From NCBI GenBank assembly GCA_013112545.1, contig JABFGJ010000002.1, positions 1-64,000 of the forward strand: DNA of 64,000 bases, given 5' to 3'. The position numbers and the translations under genes were made by a program. This DNA comes from Bacteroidota bacterium. GTDB taxonomy: Bacteria; Bacteroidota; Bacteroidia; Flavobacteriales_E; Vicingaceae. The stretch's first letter is position 1. Every line of letters starts with the position of its first letter. The notes beneath the pieces were generated by a model. That model searched no databases. It saw only the letters and a list, made by a program, of their open reading frames with translations, and was not told the DNA's origin. Shown one piece after another: positions 5,298 to 63,224 of the stretch.

Positions 5298-5318
5298 TAA
5301 TTGATAAATCGATTAGAT

Positions 5319-8300
5319 ATGAAACTAGTTAAAAAAATAATCATACTTACACTTTTATTGTCTAGCTCAAGCATACTTTTTGCAAAAGGGCCAGAAATTA
5401 AAAAGGATGATTCAAAGAAACAAAACGATAATGTGTCAATTATTGCTGGGTGTTCACCTGCAAATAAAATTGTTTACTTGGAGTTTAACAATGTAAGAAC
5501 AAGGATTGAAAGTGGTGGTTTATGGTGGCAAGACAGACCAAACCGTGCACCAGACTATGAAGTTCCTAAGAAATCAAATTCATTTGCTATATATGCAGGT
5601 GGTTTATGGATGGCTGGAACTGACATTAATGGACAACTTAAAGCAGCAGTTACTAAATTTAGCCCTGGAGATTATTGGACAGGACCACTAGATGTAATCG
5701 GCACAGCAGAAATTAGTGATGCGACTTGCCGAGAATACGATCGTTTCTTCGAAATAAGTAAATCAGATGTATTAGAATTTTTAAAATACAGAAGAGCTCT
5801 TGAAGAGGACAATGTTGAAGAGAAATTCCCAAATGGATACAGTGTACCACTTGCAATTAAAGATTGGCCAGGGAATGGTAAAACGGAGTCTCCTTATTTT
5901 CAAGCACCTAAATTAGCTCCTTATGTAGATGTTAATAATGATAACTATTACGACTATGAAGATGGAGATTACCCTTATTATGATGTAGAAGGAAAAGATG
6001 ACTGTAGAAAGCCTAGAATCAATAGAAGCGAAAGCGCTACAAGACCTTTATTTGGGGACAAAACTTATTGGTGGATTTTTAACGATAAAGGAAACCTCCA
6101 TACTGCAAGTAATGCCCCATCTATCGGAATGGAAATACATGCTCAAGCATTTGCGTTTGCAACAAATGATGCGATCAATGACATGACATTTTATAATTTC
6201 GAATTAATCAATCGTTCTACATTTACATTAACAGATACCTACTTTGCAAGTTACGTTGACCCTGATTTGGGTTATGCTGCTGACGACTTTGTTGGATGCG
6301 ATGTAGGTAGAGGATTAGGATATTGCTATAATGGTGATGATGATGATGAAGATAATGGAGGTAGAAACGGATATGGTTCTACACCTGCAGCTATAGGTAT
6401 TGACTTTTTTGAAGGGCCATATCAAGATGCTGATGGAATAAATAATAACATCGGAATTGGAATAGGAGAAGCCTTAAACGGATTGGGCTACAATGATCTT
6501 AAAGACACTTTAAAAGATACCATTGTTGACAATGAGCGATATGGGATGAGAAGATTCGTCTATTATAATATAGGTGGCGGGCAAAATGGTGACCCTACTT
6601 TAGCAATACATTATTACAACTACATGCGCGGTATTTGGCAAAATGGCCAAAAGATGCAACATGGTGGTGATGGATTAAACACTGCTGGTGTAGAAGGGAT
6701 TCCTACGGCCTTCATGTTCCCAGGTAAAAGTGACCCATTGCATTGGGGAACTACAATTGATGGAGTAACAACTGTACCAACAAATTTAAACTGGACTGAG
6801 GATAATCCTGGAAACGGTCAAGCTCCGAATGCTAAAGGAGATAGAAGATTCTTGCAATCTGCAGGGCCTTTTACACTTGAACCAGGTAACGTAAACGATA
6901 TTACAGTAGGAGTTGTTTTTGCTCAAGCAGAAGCAGGCGGAAGATTAGCTTCTGTTAATAAATTAATTGCAGCTGACGATAAAGCTCAAGCTTTGTTTGA
7001 CAATTGCTTTAAAGTATTAGAAGGACCAGATGCTCCAGATCTCACTATTCAAGAATTAGATAAAGAATTAATTTTATATATTTCTAATGGGGAGCTTTCT
7101 AATAATTACAATGAAGAATACGAAGAAGAAGACCCTAACATTGTTACACCTGACACCGTTGAAAAAATAATAGGAAGGAAATATGATAATAAATATCGAT
7201 TCCAAGGGTATCAGATTTTTCAAGTAAAAGCAAAAGATGTATCTGTTTCACAATTAAATGATCTTTCTTTGGCGAGATTAGCATTCCAATGTGATATTGC
7301 TGATGGTGTTAAAACACTTATAAACTATACTTTTGATGATGGATTAGCCTCTAATGTAGCTGAAAAAATGGTTACAGGAAGCGATGTTGGTATTTCTCAC
7401 AGTTTTAGAGTAACAGAAGATTTATTTGCTACAGGGCTTAAAGAACTAGTAAATTATAAAACCTATTATTATATAGCCATTGCATACGGCTACAATAACT
7501 TTAAGAACTATAAACAAGGTACTGCTCCTGACTTAGACAACCCATTAGCTGCTGCTTTTGATGGTCAAAAAGAGCCTTACAAAGCAAGTAGAAAAAATTC
7601 TACAGGTGGAGCTATCTCTTCTGTTGCAGCTATTCCACATAGTACTGCTGCTGAAAGCAAAGGAACTATTATCAATTCTACTTATGGTGACCTAGTTGGA
7701 ATTACTCGCCATCAAGGTGTTGGAAATGGAAATCAAGTGATTAAGCTAACTGATGGAACAATTAACAACCTAATGGAGGAAAAGGCTTGGGAAGACAAGA
7801 ATGTTTTTCCAGAAAGACTAGAATATAAACTAGGTTATGGGCCATTATCTGTAAAAGTAGTCGATCCTTTAAGTGTGGTAGATGGTAGTTTTGTATTTAA
7901 GATGTTAGATGAAAACATCAACAATAAACCAGTTGTAACAGATACTGCTGAATGGCTATTATATCGTGTTTTAAACGGCGGAAATGATACTGTTTATTCT
8001 GAAAGACCGATTACTACGAGAAATGAGCAAATTTTAGTGGACTGGGGATTATCTATTTTGGTTGATCAAGCGAAATTACCTGGCGGTGTAGTTAATGGTG
8101 TACCTAGGGCGATTAACAATGGTTATTTAGGATCTTCGATTGAATATGCAGACCCAACAAAACCTTGGTTCTCAGGAATTAATGATCAAGATGGAGCCTT
8201 TCCTGAAAACTGGATTTTATCTGGTACAACTGCTAATGGTTCACAAGCTGCATATGATGACCGTCAGAATAATGGTGAATTTTTTGACCCAAATTCTAAT

Positions 8301-9539
8301 TATGAAAATATTTTAGGAGGTATAATGGCTCCTTATAATCTTGTCGGTTACGGGACTGGTTCAACAGCTTTAGGGACTTTGGTTAATAAACCTGGATATA
8401 ACCAATCTACTTCTAAAGACTCTAAATTAGAATTCTTGAACTCTGTTACTGTTATATTAACTAAAGATAAATCTAAGTGGACAAGATGCCCAGTTTTAGA
8501 GATGCAAGAATTAACTGATAGAGCAATTAAAGGAGATCCTAAATATTCAATTCGCTCTATGGGGTCAATTGATAAAGATGGTAACCAGTGGGAGCCAGGA
8601 ATGCCTGTTGATTTAACAAATCCAGAAAGTGCTAGTTATATTGATTCTATGGGTATGGGTTGGTTCCCAGGCTATGCAATTAATGTAGAAACTGGTGAGC
8701 GAATGAACATGGCTTATGGAGAAGATAGTTGGTATGGAGTTGATAATGGTGCGGATATGATCTGGAATCCAACCTCAAGAATTACTTCGGGTGTAATTGG
8801 TGCTACCAATAGAGTTTGGGGAGGTAAACATGTAGTTTACATTTTTAGAAAAAGTTTAAAGGCTGAAGGTTTGCCAAACAATGTAGGAAACTTCACTTTT
8901 GATATGAACGAATATGATGGTGCTAAAAGATTGGTTAAAATGATGAGATCTAATTTAACTAAACCTTTTGCATGGAGATCTTGTAGTTGGGTTATTATGC
9001 CAGTTTTAGCACCTGGACAAGAACTGTTGGCTACAGATGTAAGAATAGATGTGAATGTAGCCAGACCATTTGATATTGCGTACACAGATCTTTATGACAC
9101 TACTAGAATTGGCTCTAGTATCTCAGTTGATTCTTCATTGCACAATAGTGGCAGACCTGTTTTCACTTTCGAAACAAGAGGGTTTGCTGTTGAAAAAGGA
9201 AATACTTCTGCGCTTCAAAAAGAGATTGAACGTATAAATGTTGTTCCTAATCCTTATTATGCAATCTCTGAGTATGAGCAGTCAGCAGTTGACAACTTGA
9301 TTAAGATAATTAATTTACCTCAAGATTGTGAAATTAAAATTTACAATATGGGAGGCACATTGATACGGAAATTTAAAAAATCAGACCCAGCAAATTATTT
9401 AGATTGGGATTTGAAAAATCAAGTAGGCATTCCAATATCAAGTGGTGTATATATAATTCATATTAATGTGCCCGATGCGGGTGAGAAAATATTAAAATGG
9501 TTTGGTGTAATGAGACCAGTTGATTTAAATACCTTCTAA
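5319..9539 (+). CDS. Large T9SS-secreted surface protein (type A sorting domain)
   Basis: A 1406-aa protein from the ATG at 5319. An in-frame TTG at 5301 would add six residues before a good signal peptide (MKLVKKIIILTLLLSSSS, ending near LFAKG), so the ATG is preferred. Most of the length has no motif I recognise. It has aromatic and Asp/Asn-rich stretches such as DVNNDNYYDYEDGDYPYYD near residue 210, which looks like a calcium-binding loop, and a DDDDED run near residue 340. The last ~100 residues (NVVPNPYYA, IKIYNMGGTLIRKF, ISSGVYIIHINV) match the T9SS type A C-terminal sorting domain. It should therefore cross the outer membrane by T9SS and be anchored or released. It lies between a TonB receptor and a PorV-type gene and may be their partner. 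Confidence 0.8.
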   Translation: MKLVKKIIILTLLLSSSSILFAKGPEIKKDDSKKQNDNVSIIAGCSPANKIVYLEFNNVRTRIESGGLWWQDRPNRAPDYEVPKKSNSFAIYAGGLWMAGTDINGQLKAAVTKFSPGDYWTGPLDVIGTAEISDATCREYDRFFEISKSDVLEFLKYRRALEEDNVEEKFPNGYSVPLAIKDWPGNGKTESPYFQAPKLAPYVDVNNDNYYDYEDGDYPYYDVEGKDDCRKPRINRSESATRPLFGDKTYWWIFNDKGNLHTASNAPSIGMEIHAQAFAFATNDAINDMTFYNFELINRSTFTLTDTYFASYVDPDLGYAADDFVGCDVGRGLGYCYNGDDDDEDNGGRNGYGSTPAAIGIDFFEGPYQDADGINNNIGIGIGEALNGLGYNDLKDTLKDTIVDNERYGMRRFVYYNIGGGQNGDPTLAIHYYNYMRGIWQNGQKMQHGGDGLNTAGVEGIPTAFMFPGKSDPLHWGTTIDGVTTVPTNLNWTEDNPGNGQAPNAKGDRRFLQSAGPFTLEPGNVNDITVGVVFAQAEAGGRLASVNKLIAADDKAQALFDNCFKVLEGPDAPDLTIQELDKELILYISNGELSNNYNEEYEEEDPNIVTPDTVEKIIGRKYDNKYRFQGYQIFQVKAKDVSVSQLNDLSLARLAFQCDIADGVKTLINYTFDDGLASNVAEKMVTGSDVGISHSFRVTEDLFATGLKELVNYKTYYYIAIAYGYNNFKNYKQGTAPDLDNPLAAAFDGQKEPYKASRKNSTGGAISSVAAIPHSTAAESKGTIINSTYGDLVGITRHQGVGNGNQVIKLTDGTINNLMEEKAWEDKNVFPERLEYKLGYGPLSVKVVDPLSVVDGSFVFKMLDENINNKPVVTDTAEWLLYRVLNGGNDTVYSERPITTRNEQILVDWGLSILVDQAKLPGGVVNGVPRAINNGYLGSSIEYADPTKPWFSGINDQDGAFPENWILSGTTANGSQAAYDDRQNNGEFFDPNSNYENILGGIMAPYNLVGYGTGSTALGTLVNKPGYNQSTSKDSKLEFLNSVTVILTKDKSKWTRCPVLEMQELTDRAIKGDPKYSIRSMGSIDKDGNQWEPGMPVDLTNPESASYIDSMGMGWFPGYAINVETGERMNMAYGEDSWYGVDNGADMIWNPTSRITSGVIGATNRVWGGKHVVYIFRKSLKAEGLPNNVGNFTFDMNEYDGAKRLVKMMRSNLTKPFAWRSCSWVIMPVLAPGQELLATDVRIDVNVARPFDIAYTDLYDTTRIGSSISVDSSLHNSGRPVFTFETRGFAVEKGNTSALQKEIERINVVPNPYYAISEYEQSAVDNLIKIINLPQDCEIKIYNMGGTLIRKFKKSDPANYLDWDLKNQVGIPISSGVYIIHINVPDAGEKILKWFGVMRPVDLNTF

Positions 9540-50021: not shown

Positions 50022-52232
50022 TTGAAAAACATTCTCAAAAAACAAAAATCTGCACGTCTTGGAACTTTTGGAGGAGTGTTTACTCCATCCATTTTAACAA
50101 TCCTTGGAGTTATCATGTACCTCCGTTTTGGGTGGGTTGTAGGTAATGTTGGACTTACTGGAACGCTCATAATTGTTACCCTCGCTACCAGCATTACATT
50201 TTTGACCAGCCTTTCCATCGCTTCAATTGCTACAGATCAAAAAGTTAAAACAGGAGGAGCTTATTATATGATTAGCCGATCTTTGGGAATTGAATCAGGA
50301 GGAGCAATTGGAATCTCTCTTTATTTTGCTCAAGCTTTTTCTATCGCACTATACACTATTGGTTTTGCAGAAAGTATAGTCCAAGTTTTTCCAGCTGCTA
50401 GCGAAAAAATAGTTGGATTAATTACGGCGGTGCTAATCACTATAGTTGCAATTACGTCAGCTAAAACAGCCATAAAAGCTCAGTATGTCATCATGGTTGG
50501 CATAGCTTTATCCTTAATTTCTTTATTTTTTGGCAGTCCACTTGAAACTTTTGACCCTAATCAGACTCCTATTGTTCCAGAAAATAGTGTAGGTTTTTGG
50601 ACAGTTTTTGCTGTTTTTTTCCCAGCAGTTACCGGTATCATGGCTGGGGTTAATATGTCAGGAGATTTAAAAAACCCCAATCGTTCAATTCCTAGAGGAA
50701 CCTTTGCTGCAATTGCCGTTGGTTACGTAATTTATATGATTGTTCCTGTAATTATTTTTAACCGAGCTGATACAATCAACTTAATTGAGGACCCCATGAT
50801 ATTGCGCCGCATTTCTTTCTGGGGTGATGCGATTTTAATAGGTGTTTGGGGAGCAACTTTGTCTAGTGCATTGGGTAGCGTTTTAGGAGCTCCACGAGTA
50901 CTTCAGGCTTTAGCTAGAGATGGAATCTTGCCTAAGATCTTGAAGTGGACTGGTAAAGGCTCAGGAAGTGATGATTCACCCAGACTTGGGACGCTCTTTA
51001 CTTTAGCTATAGTATTAATATCAATTTGGTTAGGGGATTTAAATTTAATCGCACCTGTGTTAACCATGTTTTTTCTGACAACTTATAGTGTTTTAAACAT
51101 TGCCGCAGGCTCAGAACAATTTTTAAAAAGTCCCTCTTTTCGACCAAAATTTAAAGTACACTGGATTTTTTCATTGGTAGGAGCAATTTCTTGTATTGGG
51201 GTTATGTTTTTAATCAATTCTGGAGCAACCTTTATTGCATTAGTTTTTGTAGCGCTTATCTTTATTTGGTTAAAGGGTAGGGGTTTGCAAACTTCATTTG
51301 GTAATATTAGCCGCGGTATTCGCATGGCAATTATAAAATCTAGTTTAATGAAAATATCGGAAGAGCAAGATGCTAAAACATGGCGACCAAACCCTTTGGT
51401 TTTAGTTGGTTCACCTAAAAAGAGGTGGCATTTAATTGAGTTTGCCGATGCTTTAACACATAAACGAGGAATATTAAGTGTAGTGAGTATTATTCCTAAA
51501 GGTAGCGTAGCATATAGCAAGCTTGCTCAAATGAAAAAGCACATTCAAATTTATTTGAAAAAACAAGGGGTAGAGTGTTTGGTGAAAGTTATTCCAGCAG
51601 AAAACCCTTATGTTGGCGTTACACATGTAGCTGAATCATATGGATTAGGCGCACTTCAGCCAAACACCATCATTATCGGAGAAAGTCAAACAGATGGCTC
51701 TCAAGAAGATTATTGTGAAATGATTCGTCGTTTTTATGAGTTGAACCGCAATGTTTTAATTGTTCATAAAGCAAATAAAGGGATAACTTTTGGCAAAAAA
51801 AGAAGAATTGATATTTGGTGGGGTGGGCTAAAAGGCAATGGAGGACTAATGATGATTCTTGCTCATCTAGTGAATGATAGCATCGAATGGCGCTTGGCAA
51901 CAGTACATATAAAAATGGTAATTAATGATAAAAATGCTATAGATAGCACCAGATTGAACATGGCGAAAATGTTAGAAGAAATTAGAATAAAAGCCAAAAT
52001 AGATATCATTCCTATGGAAAATAGAAAGTTTGACGAAATTTTAGTCCAACATTCATCTGATGCAGATTTAGTCTTTTTAGGTTTGGCAAAACCAGACAAA
52101 GATTTCCTAAAATACTACGATTCTGTACAAGAAAGAATTAAAGAATTACCAACAACAATTTTAGCTTTAGCCTCTCAGAATGTATCATTTGGTGAAATAT
52201 TAATTAAAAAAGAAATGAATTCAGATGCTTAA
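50022..52232 (+). CDS. SLC12-like cation-chloride cotransporter
   Basis: A 736-aa protein starting at TTG 50022. Twelve TM helices (about residues 20-430) begin with LGTFGGVFTPSILTILGVIMYLR-like sequence and TGGAYYMISRSLG, the APC-superfamily pattern of the Na-K-Cl/K-Cl (CCC) branch. A soluble C-terminal domain of about 270 residues follows (LVLVGSPKKRWHLIEFADAL, VFLGLAKPDKDFLKYYDSVQ), as in eukaryotic SLC12 proteins. An amino-acid permease is less likely because of the C-terminal domain. Confidence 0.85.
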   Translation: MKNILKKQKSARLGTFGGVFTPSILTILGVIMYLRFGWVVGNVGLTGTLIIVTLATSITFLTSLSIASIATDQKVKTGGAYYMISRSLGIESGGAIGISLYFAQAFSIALYTIGFAESIVQVFPAASEKIVGLITAVLITIVAITSAKTAIKAQYVIMVGIALSLISLFFGSPLETFDPNQTPIVPENSVGFWTVFAVFFPAVTGIMAGVNMSGDLKNPNRSIPRGTFAAIAVGYVIYMIVPVIIFNRADTINLIEDPMILRRISFWGDAILIGVWGATLSSALGSVLGAPRVLQALARDGILPKILKWTGKGSGSDDSPRLGTLFTLAIVLISIWLGDLNLIAPVLTMFFLTTYSVLNIAAGSEQFLKSPSFRPKFKVHWIFSLVGAISCIGVMFLINSGATFIALVFVALIFIWLKGRGLQTSFGNISRGIRMAIIKSSLMKISEEQDAKTWRPNPLVLVGSPKKRWHLIEFADALTHKRGILSVVSIIPKGSVAYSKLAQMKKHIQIYLKKQGVECLVKVIPAENPYVGVTHVAESYGLGALQPNTIIIGESQTDGSQEDYCEMIRRFYELNRNVLIVHKANKGITFGKKRRIDIWWGGLKGNGGLMMILAHLVNDSIEWRLATVHIKMVINDKNAIDSTRLNMAKMLEEIRIKAKIDIIPMENRKFDEILVQHSSDADLVFLGLAKPDKDFLKYYDSVQERIKELPTTILALASQNVSFGEILIKKEMNSDA

Positions 52233-52242
52233 GCTTAATAAA

Positions 52243-52282
52243 TTGACAGTATATTTGTCTTAATATTGTCAATATATCCGTC
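52243..52282 (+). promoter_or_regulatory. Repeated operator-like sequence with -7 box upstream of the XRE/S24 gene
   Basis: TTGACA (52243-52248) and TGTCAA (52267-52272) form an inverted repeat. ATTGACAGTATATTTGTC and ATTGTCAATATATCCGTC (52242 and 52265) form a direct repeat with a 23-bp shift. TATATTTG (52250-52257) is an exact -7 box inside it. This is the layout of an autoregulated repressor operator; the binding itself is inference. Confidence 0.5.
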
Positions 52283-53145: not shown

Positions 53146-53171
53146 TATCTTTATGCGTCTATATTTAGACG
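53146..53171 (+). promoter_or_regulatory. -7-like box and palindrome upstream of the giant M6 gene
   Basis: TATCTTTA (53146-53153) is one base off the TAnnTTTG consensus. The palindrome CGTCTA-TATT-TAGACG (53156-53171) lies just past it, 17 nt before the ATG at 53188. A palindrome at the transcription start suggests a repressor site or a stem in the leader. Its relation to the upstream XRE operator is not obvious by sequence. Confidence 0.4.
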
Positions 53172-53187
53172 TCATAAATTGATAAAG

Positions 53188-56100
53188 ATGAAGATTATTT
53201 CTAGTTTGCTCCTATGTGGGGTGCTTTCCCTTGGGTTTATACAATTTCAAGAATCTGATGGTTCTGAAAAAACCAAGGCAACAACAATAAAATCAGACAT
53301 TCCTGCCCCTTCCAATTGCAAGGCTTCACCCTATGTAACTGACATTATTCAAGCTGATGGAAGCACAATTTCCATTATCGGAAAAGGGAACATGAATAAT
53401 TCTTGGACAGAAACAAGCGATGGCTATACTATTCTTGAAGTCAATGGAATTTACGAATATGCCCAAAAAGTAAACGGAAACTTACAGGCAACTGGAGTAA
53501 AAGCAAACAATTTAAATCAACGTTCAAGTTCAGAACTAAATTTTGTCAGCACGCTTCAAAAATCATTGAAACCAAAAATAAATCCCTTAAAAAGCTCAAT
53601 ATTAAATCAAGTTAATGCTCAATTGGGAAACAAAACTTTTCCCACAACAGGTAGTATTCGTGTGCTTGCATTATTAATTGATTATCCAGATTTGCAAAAC
53701 ACCTACACTAAAGCCAACTTCGATAGTTTGCTTTCTGGACTCAATTACAGAAATGGCGATGGTAGTTTCAAAACATATTATGAAACAGCATCTGGCGGTC
53801 AATTGACTGTTACTGTTGATGTAATGGGGTGGTACACCGCTGCAAATGGCTATTTGTTTTACGGAAGAGATAGTGGCTCAAGTCGAGCAGCAAATTTAGT
53901 GAGAGAAGCTGTGGATGCTGCTGAACTTGCTGGAGCAAATTTTGCAAATTATGACAATGATAATGATGGTAGTGTTGATGGGATTTTAGCTATTCATGCT
54001 GGGCCAGGTGCTGAGCAAGGGTCTCGAACACAATACATTTGGTCGCATCGTTGGGTTTTAAATGGTGGAAGTTCTGGAGCAGTAACCTACGATGGTAAGT
54101 TTATTAATGACTACATGATTAATCCAGAAACGAGAACATCTGGAGCCAATTCTAATCAAGTTGGAATAGGAGTTTTTGTTCATGAATTTGGACACAATTT
54201 GGGCTTGCCCGACCTCTATGACACTGACCCTAGTAATGGAGATTCCGAAGGTATTGGAAACTGGTGTGTTATGGCTGGTGGAAGCTGGCTCGGAGGAGAA
54301 CATCGACCAATTAACTTTTCAGCATGGTGTAGAATTGAAAATGGATGGGAAACTCCACAATTCCTGACCATAGGAAATAGCTTAACGGACACATTAGATG
54401 CCAGTAGCACTCAGCAAAACGAAATTAGAAGAATAAATACTGGTGTTGCTTCAGAATATTTTTTACTTGAAAATCGTCAAAAAACTGGTTTAGATTTAGA
54501 ATTGCCAGGTTCAGGTATGGCCGTTTGGCACATCAATACCATTAAAACCAATGGGTTTGGTAATGGAGTCAATGCTGATGAAGACTTAAAAGGTGTAGAT
54601 TTAGAAGAAGCCGATGGAAACAATGATTTAGACCATGAAGTTAATCGTGGTGATGCTGGTGACTTATTTCCTGGATCTTCAAATAATACAACTTTCGACG
54701 ATAATTCTAATCCCAATGCTCGAAATTATTCTTTGGCTTCTACTAATATTCAACTGAGAAACATTCAAGAAAAAACAGGGCAGATTATTTATGATTTTGG
54801 GCCACAATTGGCAACTCCATCGTGTAGCGGAGGAACAGTTTTAATGGCTGGCTCAGGTACTTTTAATGATGGAAGTAACGCCACCACAAATTATTCTAAT
54901 GATTTGAATTGTTCTTGGTTGATTCAACCAACTGGCGTTGCATCTATAAGCTTAAATTTTACTCGATTCGATGTGGATAATTTTTTAGACCGAGTTGCTG
55001 TATATGATGGGACTAGCTTTTCGGCTCCCTTAATTGGTACATATACTGGAACAACAATTCCACCAACAATTACTTCAACTGGAGGGGCTTTATATATCGA
55101 GTTTACAACAAACCCAAGTATTACAGCATTAGGATGGGAAGCGACCTACACTAGCACAGGTTTAGGTTGTGCCGGAGCCACTACAAATTTAACTGCTCCC
55201 TCTGGAAATTTCTCAGATGGTTCTGGAGCTGCAAATTATGCTAACAATACAAGTTGTTCGTGGTTAATTCAACCATCCGGAGTATCAAGCATAACATTTG
55301 GTTTAACGAGTTTAGCAACTGAAATTAATAATGATCGAATTCGAATTTATGATGGAATCGATAATACTGCTCCACAGATTGCCTCATATTCAGGTACAAA
55401 TCATTTAAATACAACTACCTCGTCTGGTGGGTCAATGTTTGTCGAATTTACAACTAATGCTACTGTAGTTGATGCTGGTTGGGATGCATATTATACTAGT
55501 TCAGTATCAGGTGCCGGTTGTAGTGGATCAACAACGTTAACAGCAACATCTGGATCATTTTCTGATGGTAGTGGCGTAAACAATTACGATAACAATCAAT
55601 TTTGCTCTTGGCTAATTCAGCCACCTTCTGGGGTGATAACTTTAAATTTTACAGCATTTGATACCGAAGCTAATTTTGATAGAGTCATAGTATTTGACGG
55701 AGTTGACAATACAGCACCACAAATTGGAAATTTTAGTGGAAGCACAATTCCTGCAGCTTTAATTTCCTCTTCAAATGCCATGTACATTGAATTTAGAACC
55801 AATGGTAGCGTAGTCAATCAAGGTTGGGATGCTAATTATACGGCAGGTAGTCCACCTAGTACTTGTTCAGGAAATACTAATTTATCTGCTAATACAGGTA
55901 CATTCGATGATGGAAGTGGTGTTAATGTAAATTATTCTAACAACTTAAACTGTAGTTGGGCAATTAGTATCCCTACTGCAAGTGTTATGTCGATTGCATT
56001 TGATTCTATAGCTATTGCTGCTGGCGATACAGTGTTTATTTATGACGGTTCAAATGCTACGGCTCCACTTTTGGGAAAATACTCTGGTTATACTATCCCT

Positions 56101-59100
56101 GCATTTCTTTTAACAAGCACAAACAATGCTTATGTAGAATTCAAGTCAAATGCAAATACGAATGATGAAGGCTGGCAAATAACTTATACAGGAGTAAACG
56201 GCTGTAGTGGAACAACTAATTTAAATGCAGTTTCTGGTACTTTTTCTGACGGAACTCAACCTGGTCAACAATATTTTAACAATAGCAATTGCCAATGGTT
56301 AATTCAACCTCCTGGTGCTAACTTTATTACGCTGGATTTTAATCGTTTTGACACAGAACAGAATTTCGATTTTGTAGAGGTTTACGACGGAGCAACAACA
56401 GCAAGCACATCTTTAGGTCGATTCGATGGTAACACCATTCCACCTTCAATTATTTCCTCAAGTGGTAGCTTATTAGTTGTTTTTACGAGTGATATTTCCT
56501 TAGCTGGTTTGGGCTGGGAAGCTAGGTATAATTCAAGTACTACTAAATGTTTACAAAATAGACTCTATACATCAAATAACGGCTCATTTAGCGATGGTAG
56601 CGGAGCCCTGCATTATGATAATAACTCGAATTGTAGTTGGTTAATTCAACCAGCCTTAGCAACAAACATTACCTTAACTTTTAGTGCTTTTGATACGGAG
56701 TCAGCTAATGATGTTGTAAATATTTATGATGGAATAGATAATACAGGAACTTTAGTTGCATCCTATTCAGGAAGTACAATTCCAGCAGCGGCATCAGTTA
56801 ATGGAACAAACAAAAGCATGTTTGTAGAGTTTATTACCAATGGTTCTATCACCGCTCAAGGGTGGGATGCTAGTTATACTTCTACGAGTGCTGTCACTTG
56901 TAGCGGTGTTACTAATTTAACTGCTGCATCCGCTTCTTTTTCAGATGGAAGTGGTACAGGAGTTTATGATAATAACTTGAATTGTGGCTGGTTAATTCAA
57001 CCAACTGGTGGGGCAGCAGTAATTACTTTAACCATGAATACCATGGCCTTAGCAGACTTTAACGACCGAGTAAGAGTATATGATGGTGTGAATAATTCTG
57101 CCAACTTAATTGGTAATTTCTTTTTTAATAATACAGGTAATCCTGTAAGCGCATATAGCGGAAGTATGTTTGTTGAATTTACAACAAATGCAACTGGACA
57201 AGGTCAAGGTTGGGATGCAACCTATACTAGCTCAAATACCTATTGTACACCATTAACTGTATTTACCAATAACAATGGAAACTTCACCGATGGTTCGCCA
57301 TTAAGTAGTAATTATTTAGATAATACTGACTGTCAATGGTTGATTCAGCCAACTGCAACCAACATTGCTGTTCGCATCACATTCTTTCAATTTAATACAG
57401 AGGCTGGATTTGATACGGTTACGGTTTATGATGGAACAACAACTGCTGACCCTATATTAGGTACTTTTTCAGGAAGCCTTGGTTCTATTCCTGCAATCAC
57501 TTCAAGTGGAGGAGATATGCTTGTTACTTTTAAAACAGATGGAAACACTACTGGTACAGGTTGGAGAGCTTTTTATTCCACTCAGACTATTCCTAATTGT
57601 GTAGGCTTAACAACCTTAAATGCAGCAACTGGTACTTTCGATGATGGTAGTTTGGCTACCGCAAACTATATAGAAAATAGTAATTGTCAATGGCTAATTC
57701 AACCAACTGGAGCAAGCCTTGTATCTTTGACATTCAATCGGTTTTCAACACAAGCAGGAAGTGATTTTGTACGTGTATATGATGGGTCGAATAATTCCGC
57801 ACCTTTAATTGGTAGCTACTCAGGAAACGCTCTTCCTCCATCCATAAGCTCAACTGGGTCAAGCTTATTTGTAGAATTTACGACTAACGGATTTAACAAC
57901 CAAACTGGATGGGAAGCAACTTATAATTCAAGTAGCGCGCAATGTTTTACTAACTTAACACTGACTTCACATACAGACACTATTGAGGATGGAAGTAAGT
58001 CATTGAATTATCAGAATAATTTAAATTGTAGTTGGCTTATACAACCAAATACTGCTATAGACATAACCTTAACTTTCTTAGATTTTAATGTAAATAATTT
58101 AGGTGATACATTAATTATTTATGATGGATCAAATGCTTCTGCTCCAGTCCTTGCGAAATATACCGGCAACTCTTTACCAGCAGCAATTACATCAACTGGT
58201 AATTCAATGTTTGTAGAATTTAATACAGATGGCTCTACAGTTGACCAAGGCTGGAAGGCAGTTTATACCATTACATCAAGTTTATCTTGTGTAGGAACCA
58301 CTAATTTAACTGCGCCAAGCGGAACATTTTCAGATGGAAGTGGCACAGCAGTCTATGATAATAATTTAGCTTGTGGATGGTTAATTCAACCACCTGGAAA
58401 TCCTGCCGTTATCGTCTTAAATATGACAAGCATGAACTTGGCGAATTTTGGAGACCGAGTAAGAGTATATGATGGCGTTGATAATTCAGGAACTATTGTT
58501 GGTAGTTTTTTTGGAAGTAATATAGGAAATCCAGTTTCAGCTTATTCTGGCAGTATGTTTGTCGAGTTTATAACGGATGGTATTCAACAAGGCCAAGGAT
58601 GGGATGCTAACTATAGTTCTTCATTCACTTATTGTGCTCCAAGTACAACTTTCACTGCAAACAATGGTAATTTCACTGATGGCTCACCTAATGGAACCAA
58701 TTATTTGAACAATACAAGTTGTGAATGGCTTATTCAGCCAGCCGCAACAAATGTTGCAGTAAGCTTAAGATTCTTTCAGTTTAATACAGAGGCAGGTGCT
58801 GATACAGTTACCGTTTATGATGGGGTTAACTCAAGTGCTCCGATACTTGCAACTTATTCTGGAAACCTGGGAACTACAACTCAAATTGTATCTAGCGGAG
58901 GCTCTATGTTTGTTACTTTTAAATCGGATGCAAGCACCACAGCGTCAGGATGGAGAGCAATTTACAATACACAAACGATTCCCTTCTGCTCTGGAACTAC
59001 CAATTTAACTGCTGCAAGTGGCACTTTTTCAGATGGTAGCGCAAATGGAGTTAATTATGTGCAAAATAGCAATTGCGAATGGTTGATACAGCCTGCTGGA

Positions 59101-61812
59101 GGTGCAGTGTCAATTGATTTAAACTTTAATTATTTTAATACCGAAGCAAATTTTGATTTTGTTACGGTTTATAATGGCAGCACAGTTGCAGCACCTGTTT
59201 TGGGTACTTTTTCTGGAACTACAATTCCTGGGACTATAACTGCAACTGGAGGAAGTATGCTAGTTGTATTTACAAGTGATCAAGCACAGCAAGCAAATGG
59301 TTGGGAAGCAAGTTATACTTCTAGTAATGTGATATTCCTTGATGCAGTGCAAGATACCATAACTATAAATGCGGGTGCAGGTAGCACAGGAAGTATTAGT
59401 GTAAACTCAAACTCCAATTGGAGCACAAGTGATAATGCTACTTGGTTAATTGTTTCACCTCTAAATGGTTCGCATAATCAATCCATAATCGCATTGGCCA
59501 TACAACCAAATATTGGCCCTAAGAGATATGCTAAAGCTTATATAAATGCTCAAACTGGAATTCAAAAAGATTCAGTAGTGATAGTGCAAAGAGCTTCTGG
59601 TAATTTCTTAAGTGCTAATCCTGATACTTTATATTTTGCTGCTAATCCAAGCGCATCGCAAAATGCTACTATCGTTTCTAGTGTTAGCTGGAATTTAACT
59701 CCTTCGCAATCTTGGATAACTAGCATACCTAATTCAGGAAATAACAATGGTTCAAGTGCTGTATCTGTTAGCCAAAATACTAATACAGCAATTAGGATTG
59801 GTCATATTGTAGTTTCTGGTAACCTAGGTGTAGCAAATGACACTATTTTTGTGAAACAAGATGCTGCACCAGTTCAGCCTCCAAGTTTATCTGTAAGTCC
59901 TAGTAATTTAAGTTTGAATCAAGCTAATGGCAGCTCAGGAATGTTTACAGTTAACTCTACTGTTCAATGGCAAACAAGCTCAGGCGCGACTTGGTTAACT
60001 GTTTTAAATCCTGCCAACACCTTTGATACTAACACAGTAATGATATCTGCTAATTCTGCAAATGCTTCCCCAAATCCAAGATCTAGCTTTGTTGCGGTTC
60101 AAGACATAGCAGGAACTCTATTTGATACAGTTTTTGTTAGTCAATTGGGATTAAACCCAAGCTTAGATGCCAATCCAGACACGGTTTACTTAGGAGCTAC
60201 TGCAGGTAGTGTTGGAAACGCCAACATTACTTCAAATCAAAATTGGAATTTAACAATTCCTGTTACATGGGTAAATGCAAACTTGAGTAATGGAACAGGC
60301 AATGCAGCATTAACATTTACTGCAAATGCTGACAATAATACTGGAGCTAATTTAATTTCTTACGCGGCAATAAGTGATGCTTCTAATTCATTATTCGACA
60401 CCATTTTCATTGTTCAAGACTTTATCAAAAGTACAGGTGGAGTTACTACTAATCCCGATACCATTCGATTAGCAGCCGCGATGGGTTCTAGCAATACATT
60501 TTCTGTCATTGCTTCAAGTGCTACATCTTGGACATCAACTCCTGATGCTTCATGGATTAACCTAAGTTCAACCAATGGAACGGGTTCTAAAACGATTACT
60601 GTGACAGCTAATTCAGCAAATCTTAACACAACTGAAAGAATGACTTTTATTGTTACTTCAGATGCTAGTTTGCCAATACCTGATACTGTTTTTGTGATTC
60701 AAGAAGGCACGATTCTTAACTTTTCTGTTAGCCCTAATAATTTAAGTTTGAATTTTAATAGTGGTAGTAATGGACAAGTAAATGTTAGCTCGACCGTTAA
60801 TTGGACAATTTCTAATCCAGTTACTTGGTTGACACTCAGCACAAGTAGTGGGTCAAATAATGGTGTTGTAACTATAACAGCAAATTCGGATAATTTAAGC
60901 GGAATCAATCGAACTGCAAATCTTTCTTTTGATGCAGCAGGTTTACCTAGTCAATTAGTAACAGTAACACAAGTTGATGGTTCTGGCCCTAATTTTAGTT
61001 TGTCTGTTGATACTGTTTTTGTTGGAAATCCACAAGGAAGCACTGCTACTTTTTCAGTTTTATCTAACATACAAGGCTGGACTTTAAGTGAAAATACACC
61101 TTGGCTATTGGTGAACCCAATTAGTGGTAATAATGTTGGGTTAATTACTGTTTTAGCGGCAAGTAGAAATAACTACGGAACGCCAAGAACGGCAATTATT
61201 CGCTCTACGGCTCCAGGCTTCCCTAATGACTCTGTGGTTGTTATCCAAAAGGAAACAACGCCACTATTCCAGGTTGCACCAAAAAATGTATTACTTGGTG
61301 TGAATAAGAATGATCAAGCTACTTTCAACATAAGCTCTAACTTGATAAACTGGGTGCTGACTGAAAATGCTTCTTGGATGGATGTTTCTACTACTATAGG
61401 AGGATTTACTCAAACAGTTGTGATTACTGCTACAGATACAAACAATACTGGTAATGTTAGATTGGACAGCATAGTTGTTTCTTCGCCTCCTTTAGTGCCA
61501 CAAACTGTATATGTTACGCAAGATACGATTAGAGGAATAGGCATTGAAACCTATGATTTAACAACTAACTTGAGCGTTTATCCGAATCCAAATACTGGGT
61601 CATTCTATATTCAATCAGAAGGAAATAAAGAATTGAAAGATGCGAATATTCAAGTGTTTGATATGTTGGGCAAAATGATAAAGTTTAATGTAAATGCAAT
61701 TGACAACCATAAAGTTAAACTGGAATTAAACACTCAATCAGAAGGAATTTATTTCGTCCAATTTATCCTTGGAAATGAACGGGTAACTCGAAAAATTACG
61801 CTAGTCAATTAG
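53188..61812 (+). CDS. Giant T9SS-secreted M6 metalloprotease with 13 CUB and 8 BACON domains
   Basis: A 2874-aa protein from ATG 53188 (a TTG at 53179 would add three residues). Signal peptide about 1-19. The M6 (immune inhibitor A-like) protease domain ends near residue 540; the zinc motif is H332-E-F-G-H336 with NLGLPD after it. Thirteen CUB domains of about 115 residues follow (about residues 546-2046). Each starts with a Cys near SG or TTNL, carries FSDGS and NC.WLIQP, and ends GW.A.Y. Eight BACON domains then run to about residue 2785 (SVSPNNLSLN, TWLT, VTQ). The C-terminus (LSVYPNPNTGSFYIQ, GIYFVQFI, TRKITLVN) is a T9SS type A sorting domain. It is probably secreted to the cell surface and degrades protein while binding glycan-rich substrates; the substrate is unknown. 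Confidence 0.92.
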   Translation: MKIISSLLLCGVLSLGFIQFQESDGSEKTKATTIKSDIPAPSNCKASPYVTDIIQADGSTISIIGKGNMNNSWTETSDGYTILEVNGIYEYAQKVNGNLQATGVKANNLNQRSSSELNFVSTLQKSLKPKINPLKSSILNQVNAQLGNKTFPTTGSIRVLALLIDYPDLQNTYTKANFDSLLSGLNYRNGDGSFKTYYETASGGQLTVTVDVMGWYTAANGYLFYGRDSGSSRAANLVREAVDAAELAGANFANYDNDNDGSVDGILAIHAGPGAEQGSRTQYIWSHRWVLNGGSSGAVTYDGKFINDYMINPETRTSGANSNQVGIGVFVHEFGHNLGLPDLYDTDPSNGDSEGIGNWCVMAGGSWLGGEHRPINFSAWCRIENGWETPQFLTIGNSLTDTLDASSTQQNEIRRINTGVASEYFLLENRQKTGLDLELPGSGMAVWHINTIKTNGFGNGVNADEDLKGVDLEEADGNNDLDHEVNRGDAGDLFPGSSNNTTFDDNSNPNARNYSLASTNIQLRNIQEKTGQIIYDFGPQLATPSCSGGTVLMAGSGTFNDGSNATTNYSNDLNCSWLIQPTGVASISLNFTRFDVDNFLDRVAVYDGTSFSAPLIGTYTGTTIPPTITSTGGALYIEFTTNPSITALGWEATYTSTGLGCAGATTNLTAPSGNFSDGSGAANYANNTSCSWLIQPSGVSSITFGLTSLATEINNDRIRIYDGIDNTAPQIASYSGTNHLNTTTSSGGSMFVEFTTNATVVDAGWDAYYTSSVSGAGCSGSTTLTATSGSFSDGSGVNNYDNNQFCSWLIQPPSGVITLNFTAFDTEANFDRVIVFDGVDNTAPQIGNFSGSTIPAALISSSNAMYIEFRTNGSVVNQGWDANYTAGSPPSTCSGNTNLSANTGTFDDGSGVNVNYSNNLNCSWAISIPTASVMSIAFDSIAIAAGDTVFIYDGSNATAPLLGKYSGYTIPAFLLTSTNNAYVEFKSNANTNDEGWQITYTGVNGCSGTTNLNAVSGTFSDGTQPGQQYFNNSNCQWLIQPPGANFITLDFNRFDTEQNFDFVEVYDGATTASTSLGRFDGNTIPPSIISSSGSLLVVFTSDISLAGLGWEARYNSSTTKCLQNRLYTSNNGSFSDGSGALHYDNNSNCSWLIQPALATNITLTFSAFDTESANDVVNIYDGIDNTGTLVASYSGSTIPAAASVNGTNKSMFVEFITNGSITAQGWDASYTSTSAVTCSGVTNLTAASASFSDGSGTGVYDNNLNCGWLIQPTGGAAVITLTMNTMALADFNDRVRVYDGVNNSANLIGNFFFNNTGNPVSAYSGSMFVEFTTNATGQGQGWDATYTSSNTYCTPLTVFTNNNGNFTDGSPLSSNYLDNTDCQWLIQPTATNIAVRITFFQFNTEAGFDTVTVYDGTTTADPILGTFSGSLGSIPAITSSGGDMLVTFKTDGNTTGTGWRAFYSTQTIPNCVGLTTLNAATGTFDDGSLATANYIENSNCQWLIQPTGASLVSLTFNRFSTQAGSDFVRVYDGSNNSAPLIGSYSGNALPPSISSTGSSLFVEFTTNGFNNQTGWEATYNSSSAQCFTNLTLTSHTDTIEDGSKSLNYQNNLNCSWLIQPNTAIDITLTFLDFNVNNLGDTLIIYDGSNASAPVLAKYTGNSLPAAITSTGNSMFVEFNTDGSTVDQGWKAVYTITSSLSCVGTTNLTAPSGTFSDGSGTAVYDNNLACGWLIQPPGNPAVIVLNMTSMNLANFGDRVRVYDGVDNSGTIVGSFFGSNIGNPVSAYSGSMFVEFITDGIQQGQGWDANYSSSFTYCAPSTTFTANNGNFTDGSPNGTNYLNNTSCEWLIQPAATNVAVSLRFFQFNTEAGADTVTVYDGVNSSAPILATYSGNLGTTTQIVSSGGSMFVTFKSDASTTASGWRAIYNTQTIPFCSGTTNLTAASGTFSDGSANGVNYVQNSNCEWLIQPAGGAVSIDLNFNYFNTEANFDFVTVYNGSTVAAPVLGTFSGTTIPGTITATGGSMLVVFTSDQAQQANGWEASYTSSNVIFLDAVQDTITINAGAGSTGSISVNSNSNWSTSDNATWLIVSPLNGSHNQSIIALAIQPNIGPKRYAKAYINAQTGIQKDSVVIVQRASGNFLSANPDTLYFAANPSASQNATIVSSVSWNLTPSQSWITSIPNSGNNNGSSAVSVSQNTNTAIRIGHIVVSGNLGVANDTIFVKQDAAPVQPPSLSVSPSNLSLNQANGSSGMFTVNSTVQWQTSSGATWLTVLNPANTFDTNTVMISANSANASPNPRSSFVAVQDIAGTLFDTVFVSQLGLNPSLDANPDTVYLGATAGSVGNANITSNQNWNLTIPVTWVNANLSNGTGNAALTFTANADNNTGANLISYAAISDASNSLFDTIFIVQDFIKSTGGVTTNPDTIRLAAAMGSSNTFSVIASSATSWTSTPDASWINLSSTNGTGSKTITVTANSANLNTTERMTFIVTSDASLPIPDTVFVIQEGTILNFSVSPNNLSLNFNSGSNGQVNVSSTVNWTISNPVTWLTLSTSSGSNNGVVTITANSDNLSGINRTANLSFDAAGLPSQLVTVTQVDGSGPNFSLSVDTVFVGNPQGSTATFSVLSNIQGWTLSENTPWLLVNPISGNNVGLITVLAASRNNYGTPRTAIIRSTAPGFPNDSVVVIQKETTPLFQVAPKNVLLGVNKNDQATFNISSNLINWVLTENASWMDVSTTIGGFTQTVVITATDTNNTGNVRLDSIVVSSPPLVPQTVYVTQDTIRGIGIETYDLTTNLSVYPNPNTGSFYIQSEGNKELKDANIQVFDMLGKMIKFNVNAIDNHKVKLELNTQSEGIYFVQFILGNERVTRKITLVN

Positions 61813-61838
61813 GAATAGATTAATAAACAAAAAAAACA

Positions 61839-61860
61839 GGGCGATAAGAAATTATCGCCC
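61839..61860. terminator. Strong bidirectional terminator
   Basis: A 9-bp perfect stem (GGGCGATAA, 61839-61847, with TTATCGCCC, 61852-61860) around a GAAA tetraloop. An A tract lies on the left (61828-61836) and T-rich bases on the right, so it can end both the giant protease gene and the convergent barrel gene. Confidence 0.92.
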
Positions 61861-61880
61861 TCTTACTTTACTATTAAACC

Positions 61881-63224
61881 CTACCAAGGAGATGAACTCC
61901 ATTTTGCTTTAGAAGCGGACGGCCTTTTTCTACAATCAGCGCTGTTTTGAATTGGAATATTCAATGAAAAATACAAGTCAACTGCATTGATGTCTTTAGT
62001 TCTAATGAAAGGACTTAGATGATCTGTTCCAATGGCCAAATAGCCCAATCTGAGGTATAAGCCCATTTGTGGAGCCGTATAGTTTGACAGTGATAAAGGA
62101 ATTGATGCAGTAAACCAACGACTTTCGAATCGTGGAGAAATTGCAAATACATTTGATCGTTCAACTCCCAAGCTAGTAGCAAGACTAATTTTTTGAACAA
62201 TAATAGCATTCAGATAAACATAGTCGCGAAGCCTATAGTCGGCCTGCAATGAAAGTGCTGTTGGCAGAATAGCTGTAAAATTTGATTCATTGATTTCATT
62301 AGCTTTAGCTATTCCTTTTTCTATGTCACCAACCTCTAGACTATCAGATAAATTAGCATTTTGTGAATTTTCTTTAAATCGTATATAGCCCACATCTAAA
62401 AGTGAAACCCCAATTTTATAATGGTATTCAGGTGCTTTACAACCTACTTTTCTGGAATGTGCATAGTAATTGTCAACATTGTTTTTTATTAGCATTTTTT
62501 TATAAACAAAACCGGAGTTTAAACTCCAACCACTTCCAGCATTCATTGCAACATCAGAATACGAATATTCACCTTGCAAGTTTTTGAGCGTTCCGCTTCC
62601 TCTTCTAACTTCAATTTCTGCATTGTCAATAATCATATTGGTTTGATGAATTCCAACTAAACGATTCAGACTTAAAGCTGTGCTCATCATTCGAGTACCT
62701 TTACTATAAACGATTCTACCATAACTTACTCCTATTTCTGCCCAAGTCATGCTTTTAATTCGCCCATTATTAATTTGGTAAGTACCATCAGCAGCGCTAT
62801 CAACTCCTTGATTTGCTATGATTTGACCCATAGCTCCTGGTAGGTTATTTAAATTGGCATAAGACCGGAGTGCAGTGTGAAAGCCAAAACCATTTTTTCC
62901 GGAAGCAATTGAAAATGAAGGACCGAGAACTTCTAAGGACATAAACCCTTTGCTGTCTTTATTAGGCGAATCATAGGCAATGGGAAAGTCGGTACTTTTT
63001 GGACCTAATCTTGAGTTGGCGATATGCATAAAATTATTGCGAATGGATGCATGAAAACCCATTACATTAACCGATAGCCAAGGTTTTTGATCGAGTATGG
63101 AGGCGGGATTGTTAGAAACGTGATATACTGGTAAGTAATTATCTGTCGTAAGACCTATCTTTTCCTGAGCAAAAGCATTTAAAGAGAAGCCCAATAATAA
63201 ACAGATATAAGCGATATACTTCAA
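61881..63224 (-). CDS. Outer-membrane beta-barrel-like protein (DUF5723-like)
   Basis: A 447-aa protein with a signal peptide ending near LNAFAQEKIG. The N-terminal YHVSNNPASILDQKPWLSVN (NPAS motif then a strand) is like DUF5723 and related FadL-type barrels of Bacteroidota. Alternating amphipathic strands continue (WFTASIPLSLSNYTAPQMGL, YLRLGYLAIGTDHLSPFI). The final ~20 residues (CRKRPSASKAKWSSSPW) are polar and lack the usual aromatic C-terminus, so the last strand is probably the preceding DLYFSLNIPI. Role unknown. Confidence 0.7.
   Translation of the reverse strand: MKYIAYICLLLGFSLNAFAQEKIGLTTDNYLPVYHVSNNPASILDQKPWLSVNVMGFHASIRNNFMHIANSRLGPKSTDFPIAYDSPNKDSKGFMSLEVLGPSFSIASGKNGFGFHTALRSYANLNNLPGAMGQIIANQGVDSAADGTYQINNGRIKSMTWAEIGVSYGRIVYSKGTRMMSTALSLNRLVGIHQTNMIIDNAEIEVRRGSGTLKNLQGEYSYSDVAMNAGSGWSLNSGFVYKKMLIKNNVDNYYAHSRKVGCKAPEYHYKIGVSLLDVGYIRFKENSQNANLSDSLEVGDIEKGIAKANEINESNFTAILPTALSLQADYRLRDYVYLNAIIVQKISLATSLGVERSNVFAISPRFESRWFTASIPLSLSNYTAPQMGLYLRLGYLAIGTDHLSPFIRTKDINAVDLYFSLNIPIQNSADCRKRPSASKAKWSSSPW

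Follow-up and report, generated by a model that had tools for sequence, protein, structure and literature searches.

A giant M6 metalloprotease with CUB and BACON arrays, accompanied by an XRE-S24 regulator, in one family of Flavobacteriales

The window analysed here comprises the first 64,000 nucleotides of contig JABFGJ010000002.1, from a 3.27-Mb genome of a Bacteroidota bacterium, and carries at 53188-61812 (+) an open reading frame (ORF) of 2874 amino acids in which an M6 metalloprotease domain is followed by 13 CUB domains, 8 BACON domains and the tail of a type IX secretion system (T9SS) substrate (Table 1). This composition had been proposed in an initial annotation from the DNA letters and their translations, and Pfam and NCBIfam profiles as well as a division of the protein by hand agree with it. 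A TTG codon at 53179 is a possible alternative start, while the ATG at 53188 gives the 2874-aa product with an N-terminus beginning MK, as in the relatives. The region ahead of the M6 domain, modelled from residue 30 on, is a putative signal peptide and pro-region; judged by eye, the N-terminus shows no obvious signal-peptidase site. Directly upstream on the same strand, across a gap of 95 nt, lies the gene for a regulator with an XRE helix-turn-helix and an S24 domain. A hairpin search 3' of the protease gene returned two hits, one per strand and both the same hairpin, against a shuffle mean of 0.3. Directly after the protease gene, the opposite strand encodes a DUF5723 protein (61881-63224), of which no homologue was seen in the compared neighbour stretches of relatives.

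Table 1. Features of the protease locus, in coordinates of the window
Feature	Position	Strand	Basis
GAC-N9-GTC inverted repeat ahead of the regulator gene, candidate autoregulatory site	52245..52259	+	13/13 loci; putative function
XRE helix-turn-helix and S24 (LexA/CI-type) regulator, 269 aa	52283..53092	+	HTH_3 and Peptidase_S24
Conserved intergenic element TATCTTTATGCGTCTA, promoter-like	53146..53161	+	CGTCT part in 13/13; putative function
Inverted repeat CGTCT-N6-AGACG, candidate operator	53156..53171	+	read from sequence
N-terminal region, putative signal peptide and pro-region, aa 1-161	53188..53670	+	location ahead of M6
M6 metalloprotease domain, TIGR03296, aa 162-448	53671..54531	+	profile score, model, InhA2 fold match
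Zinc site HEFGHNLGLPDLYD, aa 332-345	54181..54222	+	invariant H, E, H, G, D
CUB 1	54820..55158	+	Pfam individually and family-built HMM
CUB 2	55165..55503	+	Pfam individually and family-built HMM
CUB 3	55516..55845	+	73-77% identical to CUBs in four g12 genomes
CUB 4	55861..56193	+	Pfam individually and family-built HMM
CUB 5	56200..56538	+	Pfam individually and family-built HMM
CUB 6	56542..56886	+	Pfam individually and family-built HMM
CUB 7	56896..57234	+	69-70% to CUB 11
CUB 8	57241..57585	+	67-68% to CUB 12
CUB 9	57595..57933	+	Pfam individually and family-built HMM
CUB 10	57940..58275	+	Pfam individually and family-built HMM
CUB 11	58285..58623	+	Pfam individually and family-built HMM
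CUB 12	58630..58974	+	Pfam individually and family-built HMM
CUB 13	58984..59325	+	Pfam and HMM; modelled fold Z 19.1 to TSG-6 CUB_C
BACON 1	59335..59601	+	Pfam scan and repeat alignment
BACON 2	59602..59880	+	Pfam scan and repeat alignment
BACON 3	59881..60156	+	repeat alignment
BACON 4	60157..60435	+	repeat alignment
BACON 5	60436..60717	+	Pfam scan and repeat alignment
BACON 6	60718..60990	+	best Pfam stretch; repeat alignment
BACON 7	60991..61263	+	repeat alignment
BACON 8	61264..61527	+	repeat alignment
T9SS type A sorting domain, aa 2797-2870	61576..61797	+	TIGR04183
Terminator-like hairpin 3' of the protease gene	61838..61861		scores on both strands

Over the whole protein, Pfam returned CUB at E 6.8e-233, Peptidase_M6 at 1.7e-26, BACON at 1.1e-19, BACON_2 at 5.8e-14 and Por_Secre_tail at 7e-14, and at a permissive E of up to 1 it delimited 13 CUB, 5 BACON and 7 BACON_2 stretches. 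The M6 domain scores 93.6 bits with PF05547 (cut-off 22) and 214.4 with the TIGR03296 M6dom profile (cut-off 110.8), and its model (pLDDT 88.7) fits InhA2 (PDB 4yu5) with an E of 4.7e-22 and a TM of 0.59 by query length. The M6 zinc motif HExxHxxGxxD is present as HEFGHNLGLPD, and its H, E, H, G and D are invariant in alignments of 13 and of 41 rows. The tail reaches 43 bits with TIGR04183, against a cut-off of 23, and SprA, the T9SS component that was searched for, is present in the same genome at 2628 bits; the type A tail and SprA together support export by the T9SS.

Scored singly, all 13 CUB repeats exceed the Pfam cut-off (PF00431), and in the hand division each holds two cysteines 28-29 residues apart. 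The second cysteine pair, a feature of the four-cysteine animal-type CUB subtype, is absent, there being two cysteines per CUB in 13/13. CUB 13, the only CUB modelled, matches TSG-6 CUB_C (2wno) with a Z of 19.1 and 1.6 A over 114 residues and cubilin with a Z of 18.6 (cubilin and PCPE-1 spanning 18.6-18.8), so that structure prediction, a route the initial annotation had suggested, bears out the CUB assignment. Other beta-sandwich families, considered as an alternative identity for the repeats, are ruled out by the Pfam scores and by the fold of CUB 13. At the positions expected for the Glu-Asp-Asp calcium site of CUBs, aligned to PDB chains, Asp55 is found in 136/136 CUBs of the arrays and Glu51 in 71/136, and the third site is Asp in 54 and Asn in 82; within the window protein, 7/13 CUBs keep the Glu and 7/13 have Asn where animal CUBs have Asp. 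The residue evidence for calcium binding is mixed.

The BACON domains also exceed their cut-offs over the whole protein (70.5 against 25 bits for PF13004 and 52.2 against 25 bits for PF19190), while singly four of the eight repeats reach an E of 0.001 or better and three lie above the PF13004 cut-off. The hand division gives eight repeats of 88-94 aa. The local HMM that counts eight was built from those same eight repeats, and support for the full number independent of it comes from their mutual alignment; in addition, each of the eight has its best match in the array of another genome, at 42-68% identity. The BACON models are all-strand domains; the list of structure matches covers mainly residues 1-116 (CUB) and barely the BACONs, and the sole match of the BACON run among PDB sequences, 3zmr, is weak (E 0.062).

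A search for the architecture showed that the order M6-CUB-BACON recurs in relatives, with 13 loci of a single Flavobacteriales family, which we infer to be Vicingaceae, carrying an M6 domain followed by 2-16 CUBs. BACONs come after the CUBs in 12 of these 13 array loci, the thirteenth (G002) ending at a contig edge inside the CUB run; the locus of G030 is truncated by its contig at both ends. Pfam CUB counts agree in 10 of the 11 relatives scanned, and in L056 they are 9 against 10, including one partial domain. At E 0.001, Pfam delimits no more than 1-4 BACON or BACON_2 stretches per protein in the ten uncut relatives, so the BACON counts given for relatives come from a family-built profile. 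Members of the Vicingaceae have been described from seawater, marine biofilm and freshwater, with possible gliding and a usually aerobic chemoorganotrophy (PMC7214798).

Among the M6 ORFs examined outside this family, none has a CUB array. In a survey of 395 Bacteroidia genomes, M6 domains above the cut-off were found in at least 28 and CUB domains in at least 252, both lower bounds with up to 6 M6 and 11 CUB candidates per genome among the matches listed. The label 'animal-like', in keeping with the earlier remark that CUB domains are best known from animal proteins, is thus misleading, since CUB is ordinary in Bacteroidia; two further CUB proteins are encoded in the same genome. Among 114 M6 ORFs or fragments in the stretches L062-L170, which take in 24 of the 33 over-cut-off M6 places outside the family and include one duplicate (L064 and L145 being one contig), only the family members L062 and L063 have CUB arrays, and L159 is the sole further M6 ORF with a CUB, a single one. 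No BACON was found among the other M6 ORFs of these stretches with the family-built profile, where remote CUBs or BACONs could escape profiles built from this family, and Pfam, run on 10 other M6-type proteins, likewise detected a CUB in L159 alone and a BACON in none. By Pfam, six of the longest other M6 proteins have tails of RCC1, fn3, Ig-like, PKD, LRR or beta-helix type, and the M6 paralogue in the same genome (L044) has PKD and Ig-like domains and neither CUB nor BACON. One long M6 protein of 2363 aa, from a Nitrospirae MAG (L080:9890-16978), combines RCC1 repeats with 12 MopE metal-binding motifs and has no CUB array. No M6-CUB protein was found in the published literature searched, by titles and abstracts. 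The earlier statement that few enzymes join these domains thus stands outside the family, for the M6 ORFs examined, but gives way inside it to 13 loci. We conclude that the architecture is real, family-wide and new, and that its component parts are known.

The regulator gene is a constant neighbour of the array genes, lying upstream of the M6-CUB gene in all 12 array loci with visible upstream DNA (that of G030 is not visible). Its product matches HTH_3 (E 5.7e-14) and Peptidase_S24 (25.5 bits, cut-off 23.3), and its AG, Ser and Lys positions, those of the predicted S24 cleavage site and the Ser-Lys dyad, are invariant in 13/13 orthologues. A search of the same genome and 60 relatives located close orthologues (at least 77% identity) in 13 genomes, each of them one of the family's 37; in every case the next gene downstream encodes an M6 protein, the contig of G036 ending inside the M6 domain. 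The other 24 family genomes are G030 and 23 in which no M6 above the cut-off was found, and their best regulator matches reach 43% or lower. Since neither such an M6 nor a close regulator was found in those 23 of 37, several of them incomplete, members of the family can do without the pair.

Two conserved DNA elements accompany this gene pair. An inverted GAC..GTC repeat precedes the regulator in 13/13 orthologues (per-locus shuffle frequency 0.001-0.019), and an intergenic block ending in CGTCT precedes the protease in 13/13 loci (0.015-0.070), with shuffles that keep base composition only and with counts that are not independent, because the loci are related. The latter block resembles the Bacteroidota -7 element TAnnTTTG. 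In the overlapping CGTCT-N6-AGACG repeat the left arm is kept in 13/13 and the right arm varies among relatives. The 16-base intergenic element occurs exactly once in its own genome, and two more places at two mismatches are no more than a reversed-pattern control gave. A third gene in genomes of genus g12 was considered as a further carrier of the CGTCT element, which is absent there in 3/3; terminator-like hairpins were seen by eye before this third gene in L047 and L053.

Judged from this conserved arrangement, the adjacent XRE-S24 regulator probably controls expression of the protease. That it is instead a bystander kept by synteny is possible but doubtful: neighbours co-inherit, the distances between regulators and between M6 domains correlate over 12 loci (r 0.909) as they would under simple linkage, and several loci share further neighbours; yet the next gene outward changes, being a transporter family (window 50022-52232) in 5 of 11 visible loci and two other families in 3 each, while the regulator stays in 12/12 and the M6 gene lies directly downstream in 13/13 family genomes with a close regulator. 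Also on the side of a bystander stands a second, CUB-bearing M6 gene of G011 (L058:1-2154), which has one CUB followed by other sequence and ends at the contig edge; no regulator was found in its approximately 1.27 kb of visible upstream DNA. The idea that this regulator class partners giant secreted proteins generally is ruled out, as homologues outside the family (37-62% identity) have no M6, CUB or BACON nearby, and none of these domains was tagged in the 13 stretches outside the family or in the 6 around in-family paralogues or weak homologues. In three other families, homologues of 46-51% identity are adjoined on the opposite strand by an IMS (DinB-type) polymerase, whereas in the window's family the close orthologue adjoins the giant protease and not a polymerase. 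Of the 9 neighbours scanned, 3 are such Y-family polymerases; 6 of the 9 are on the opposite strand, one of those 6 in-family. The protease-linked regulator may have been recruited from an SOS-like setting beside Y-family polymerases.

For the protein itself, a long multidomain surface protease, as first envisaged, remains the best reading, and we consider it fairly probable that it is a T9SS-secreted M6 protease in which the CUB array serves recognition and the BACON run forms a stalk, with the XRE-S24 regulator probably in control. The protein would be exported by Sec and then by the type IX system, and the C-terminal type A domain would most likely hold it at, or release it from, the cell surface. 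The BACON run adjoining this domain would act as a stalk, the CUB run beyond it as a recognition array, possibly calcium-stabilised in part, that holds its substrate, a protein or glycoprotein, and the outermost domain, M6, would cut what is held. If the protein is anchored by its tail, the order outward from the cell would be BACON, CUB and M6. T9SS-tailed M6-PKD proteins occur in other Bacteroidota, so that neither the catalytic nor the export end is new in kind.

Conservation follows the same division. Mean identity to the window protein over the relatives is 70% for M6, 57% for CUB and 46% for BACON (the last over 10 of 11 relatives, leaving out G002, whose gene ends at a contig edge), an order as expected for enzyme, recogniser and spacer. 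CUB identity is higher than BACON identity in 9 of 10 comparisons, the reverse holding in G005, with its 2 CUBs (47.4 against 48.1%), and this gap is biased because the best match is drawn from more CUBs than BACONs in most relatives. CUBs 3, 8 and 12 share 68-77% with CUBs of four g12 genomes, near or above the value for M6 (63-70%). For the BACON domains, a role as spacer is more likely than one as glycan binder. The initial annotation had described BACON as known from gut glycan systems, which is a dated view, as a published analysis argues for a spacer and assigns only 38% of BACON domains to polysaccharide utilization loci (PMC11216935); in the window protein, BACON is on average the least conserved part.

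A different emphasis, in which the protein is mainly an adhesin or matrix protein whose CUB-BACON chain makes cells stick to particles or to one another while the protease trims or releases the chain by self-processing, appears unlikely. The region before the first CUB does make up under one fifth of the protein, one particle-attached MAG belongs to the Vicingaceae (PMC10877868), and in three g12 genomes a neighbouring gene encodes 3 CUBs and 7-8 BACONs but no M6, so that a CUB-BACON chain does exist without a protease; against this, no other part is on average as well conserved as M6, whose zinc site is intact. The M6-less genes (L047:11508-14498, L050:12600-16184 and L053:1279-4614) are 60-67% alike in DNA; that of L050 has a T9SS tail by Pfam, and the L047 copy ends before its tail.

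The repeats of the arrays retain identities tied to their positions. Across the arrays, leaving out L058 and the three neighbouring g12 genes and dropping from 137 CUBs one partial CUB of G002 (<95 aa), 130/136 CUBs and 89/89 BACONs have their closest counterpart in a different protein. A young, uniform tandem repeat is ruled out, as Tandem Repeats Finder returned nothing and only 6/136 CUBs and 0/89 BACONs are closest to a repeat of their own protein. With a clustering cut-off of our own choosing, the CUB types form an ordered unit of four modules that recurs and is duplicated in several arrays, CUBs 7-8 and 11-12 of the window protein being such duplicates, and BACON order is largely colinear among arrays. 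Ordered identity alone cannot separate a binder from a spacer, because 89/89 BACONs behave alike, and an eight-BACON array with a stable repeat order is on record from crAssphage (PMC6949934). That the CUB run is a passive spacer like the BACONs, its length varying neutrally, nevertheless seems distinctly improbable: a copy number of 2 to 16, evident block duplications and the crAssphage precedent speak for it, but CUB is the better conserved in all comparisons except G005, with the best-match bias noted above, its types recur in the ordered four-module unit, and almost every CUB has its nearest repeat in another protein.

Exchange between species is suggested within the CUB array of one genus. 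The protease genes of G011 and G021, two genomes of genus g12 in which they lie on contigs of 245 and 372 kb, have an exact stretch of 497 nt in common, and over gene nt ~2530-5040 they are 85-100% identical per 150 columns, against 59-86% outside; this shows in a windowed comparison and is averaged out within long HSPs. Third-position identity in this CUB block of approximately 2.5 kb is 99.3% and 88.1% in two parts, against 46.0-57.7% outside, while the regulators of the two genomes are 83.1% and the neighbouring third genes 62.3% identical in DNA. Recombination between species is the simplest reading, because third-position identity of this kind is unexpected from protein selection alone, and the alignment thus suggests, on the strength of one genus, that CUB blocks recombine between species. 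An assembly artefact is possible, but 88% over 2 kb would be hard to obtain from one shared molecule. The genes concerned are the M6 genes of L050 (G011) and L053 (G021), together with that of L052 (G030), which shows a similar mosaic but on a contig of 6.4 kb; between the window gene and 12 other genes, no exact match of at least 40 nt was listed. Here we tentatively speculate that the middle CUB array might be a recombining specificity cassette within a surface protease under control of the regulator, in which the catalytic end and the stalk are kept, the targeting part is shuffled and species of the family exchange blocks of modules, as in phage tail fibres or modular adhesins.

Each part of the protein has known relatives. 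The InhA M6 metallopeptidases (PDB 4yu5/4yu6) belong to the same catalytic family and have the same overall fold, with the zinc motif and pro-region of that family; the structural match has 18-19% identity, and the InhA chain of 756 residues lacks the T9SS tail, 13 CUBs and 8 BACONs of the 2874-aa window protein. The T9SS-tailed M6-PKD proteases of L064, L144 and L155 likewise join M6 to Por_Secre_tail, and that of L064 is 49% identical to the window protein over the M6 region, but they are of approximately 800 aa and have PKD in place of CUB and BACON. Cubilin and PCPE-1, among the best PDB sequence matches, have tandem domains of the CUB fold and are comparable in architecture only, as the CUBs described here have one cysteine pair, a DGS..Y signature and a bacterial protease attached. 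BoGH5A (PDB 3zmr) and crAssphage share the BACON family, the latter with an ordered eight-unit array as in the window protein (PMC6949934); here, BACON lies C-terminal of the enzyme beside the T9SS tail and not N-terminal behind a lipoprotein anchor (PMC11216935).

In its architecture, the protein may be seen as the bacterial analogue of animal multi-CUB proteins, with repeats that are individually traceable. With a block that apparently moved between species, bacterial CUB binding and array swapping become testable domain by domain, and the accompanying regulator represents an entry point to the signal that switches such enzymes on. What lifts the protease above a curiosity is its pairing with the regulator, together with the CUB block that two species share.

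Other large proteins were noted in passing. The window encodes at 5301-9539 an ORF of 1412 aa with no Pfam match at E 0.001, directly preceded by a protein of 1255 aa that has CarboxypepD_reg and Plug domains. Elsewhere in the same genome (contig C4, L162:1651-8707), adjacent ORFs of 1180 and 1169 aa have one CUB each, the first being a thermolysin-type (M4) protease that also has PKD and a T9SS tail. In G043 (contig C69, L163), an open frame of 5569 aa encodes a CUB protein, with 12 CUBs within the 4286 aa scanned.
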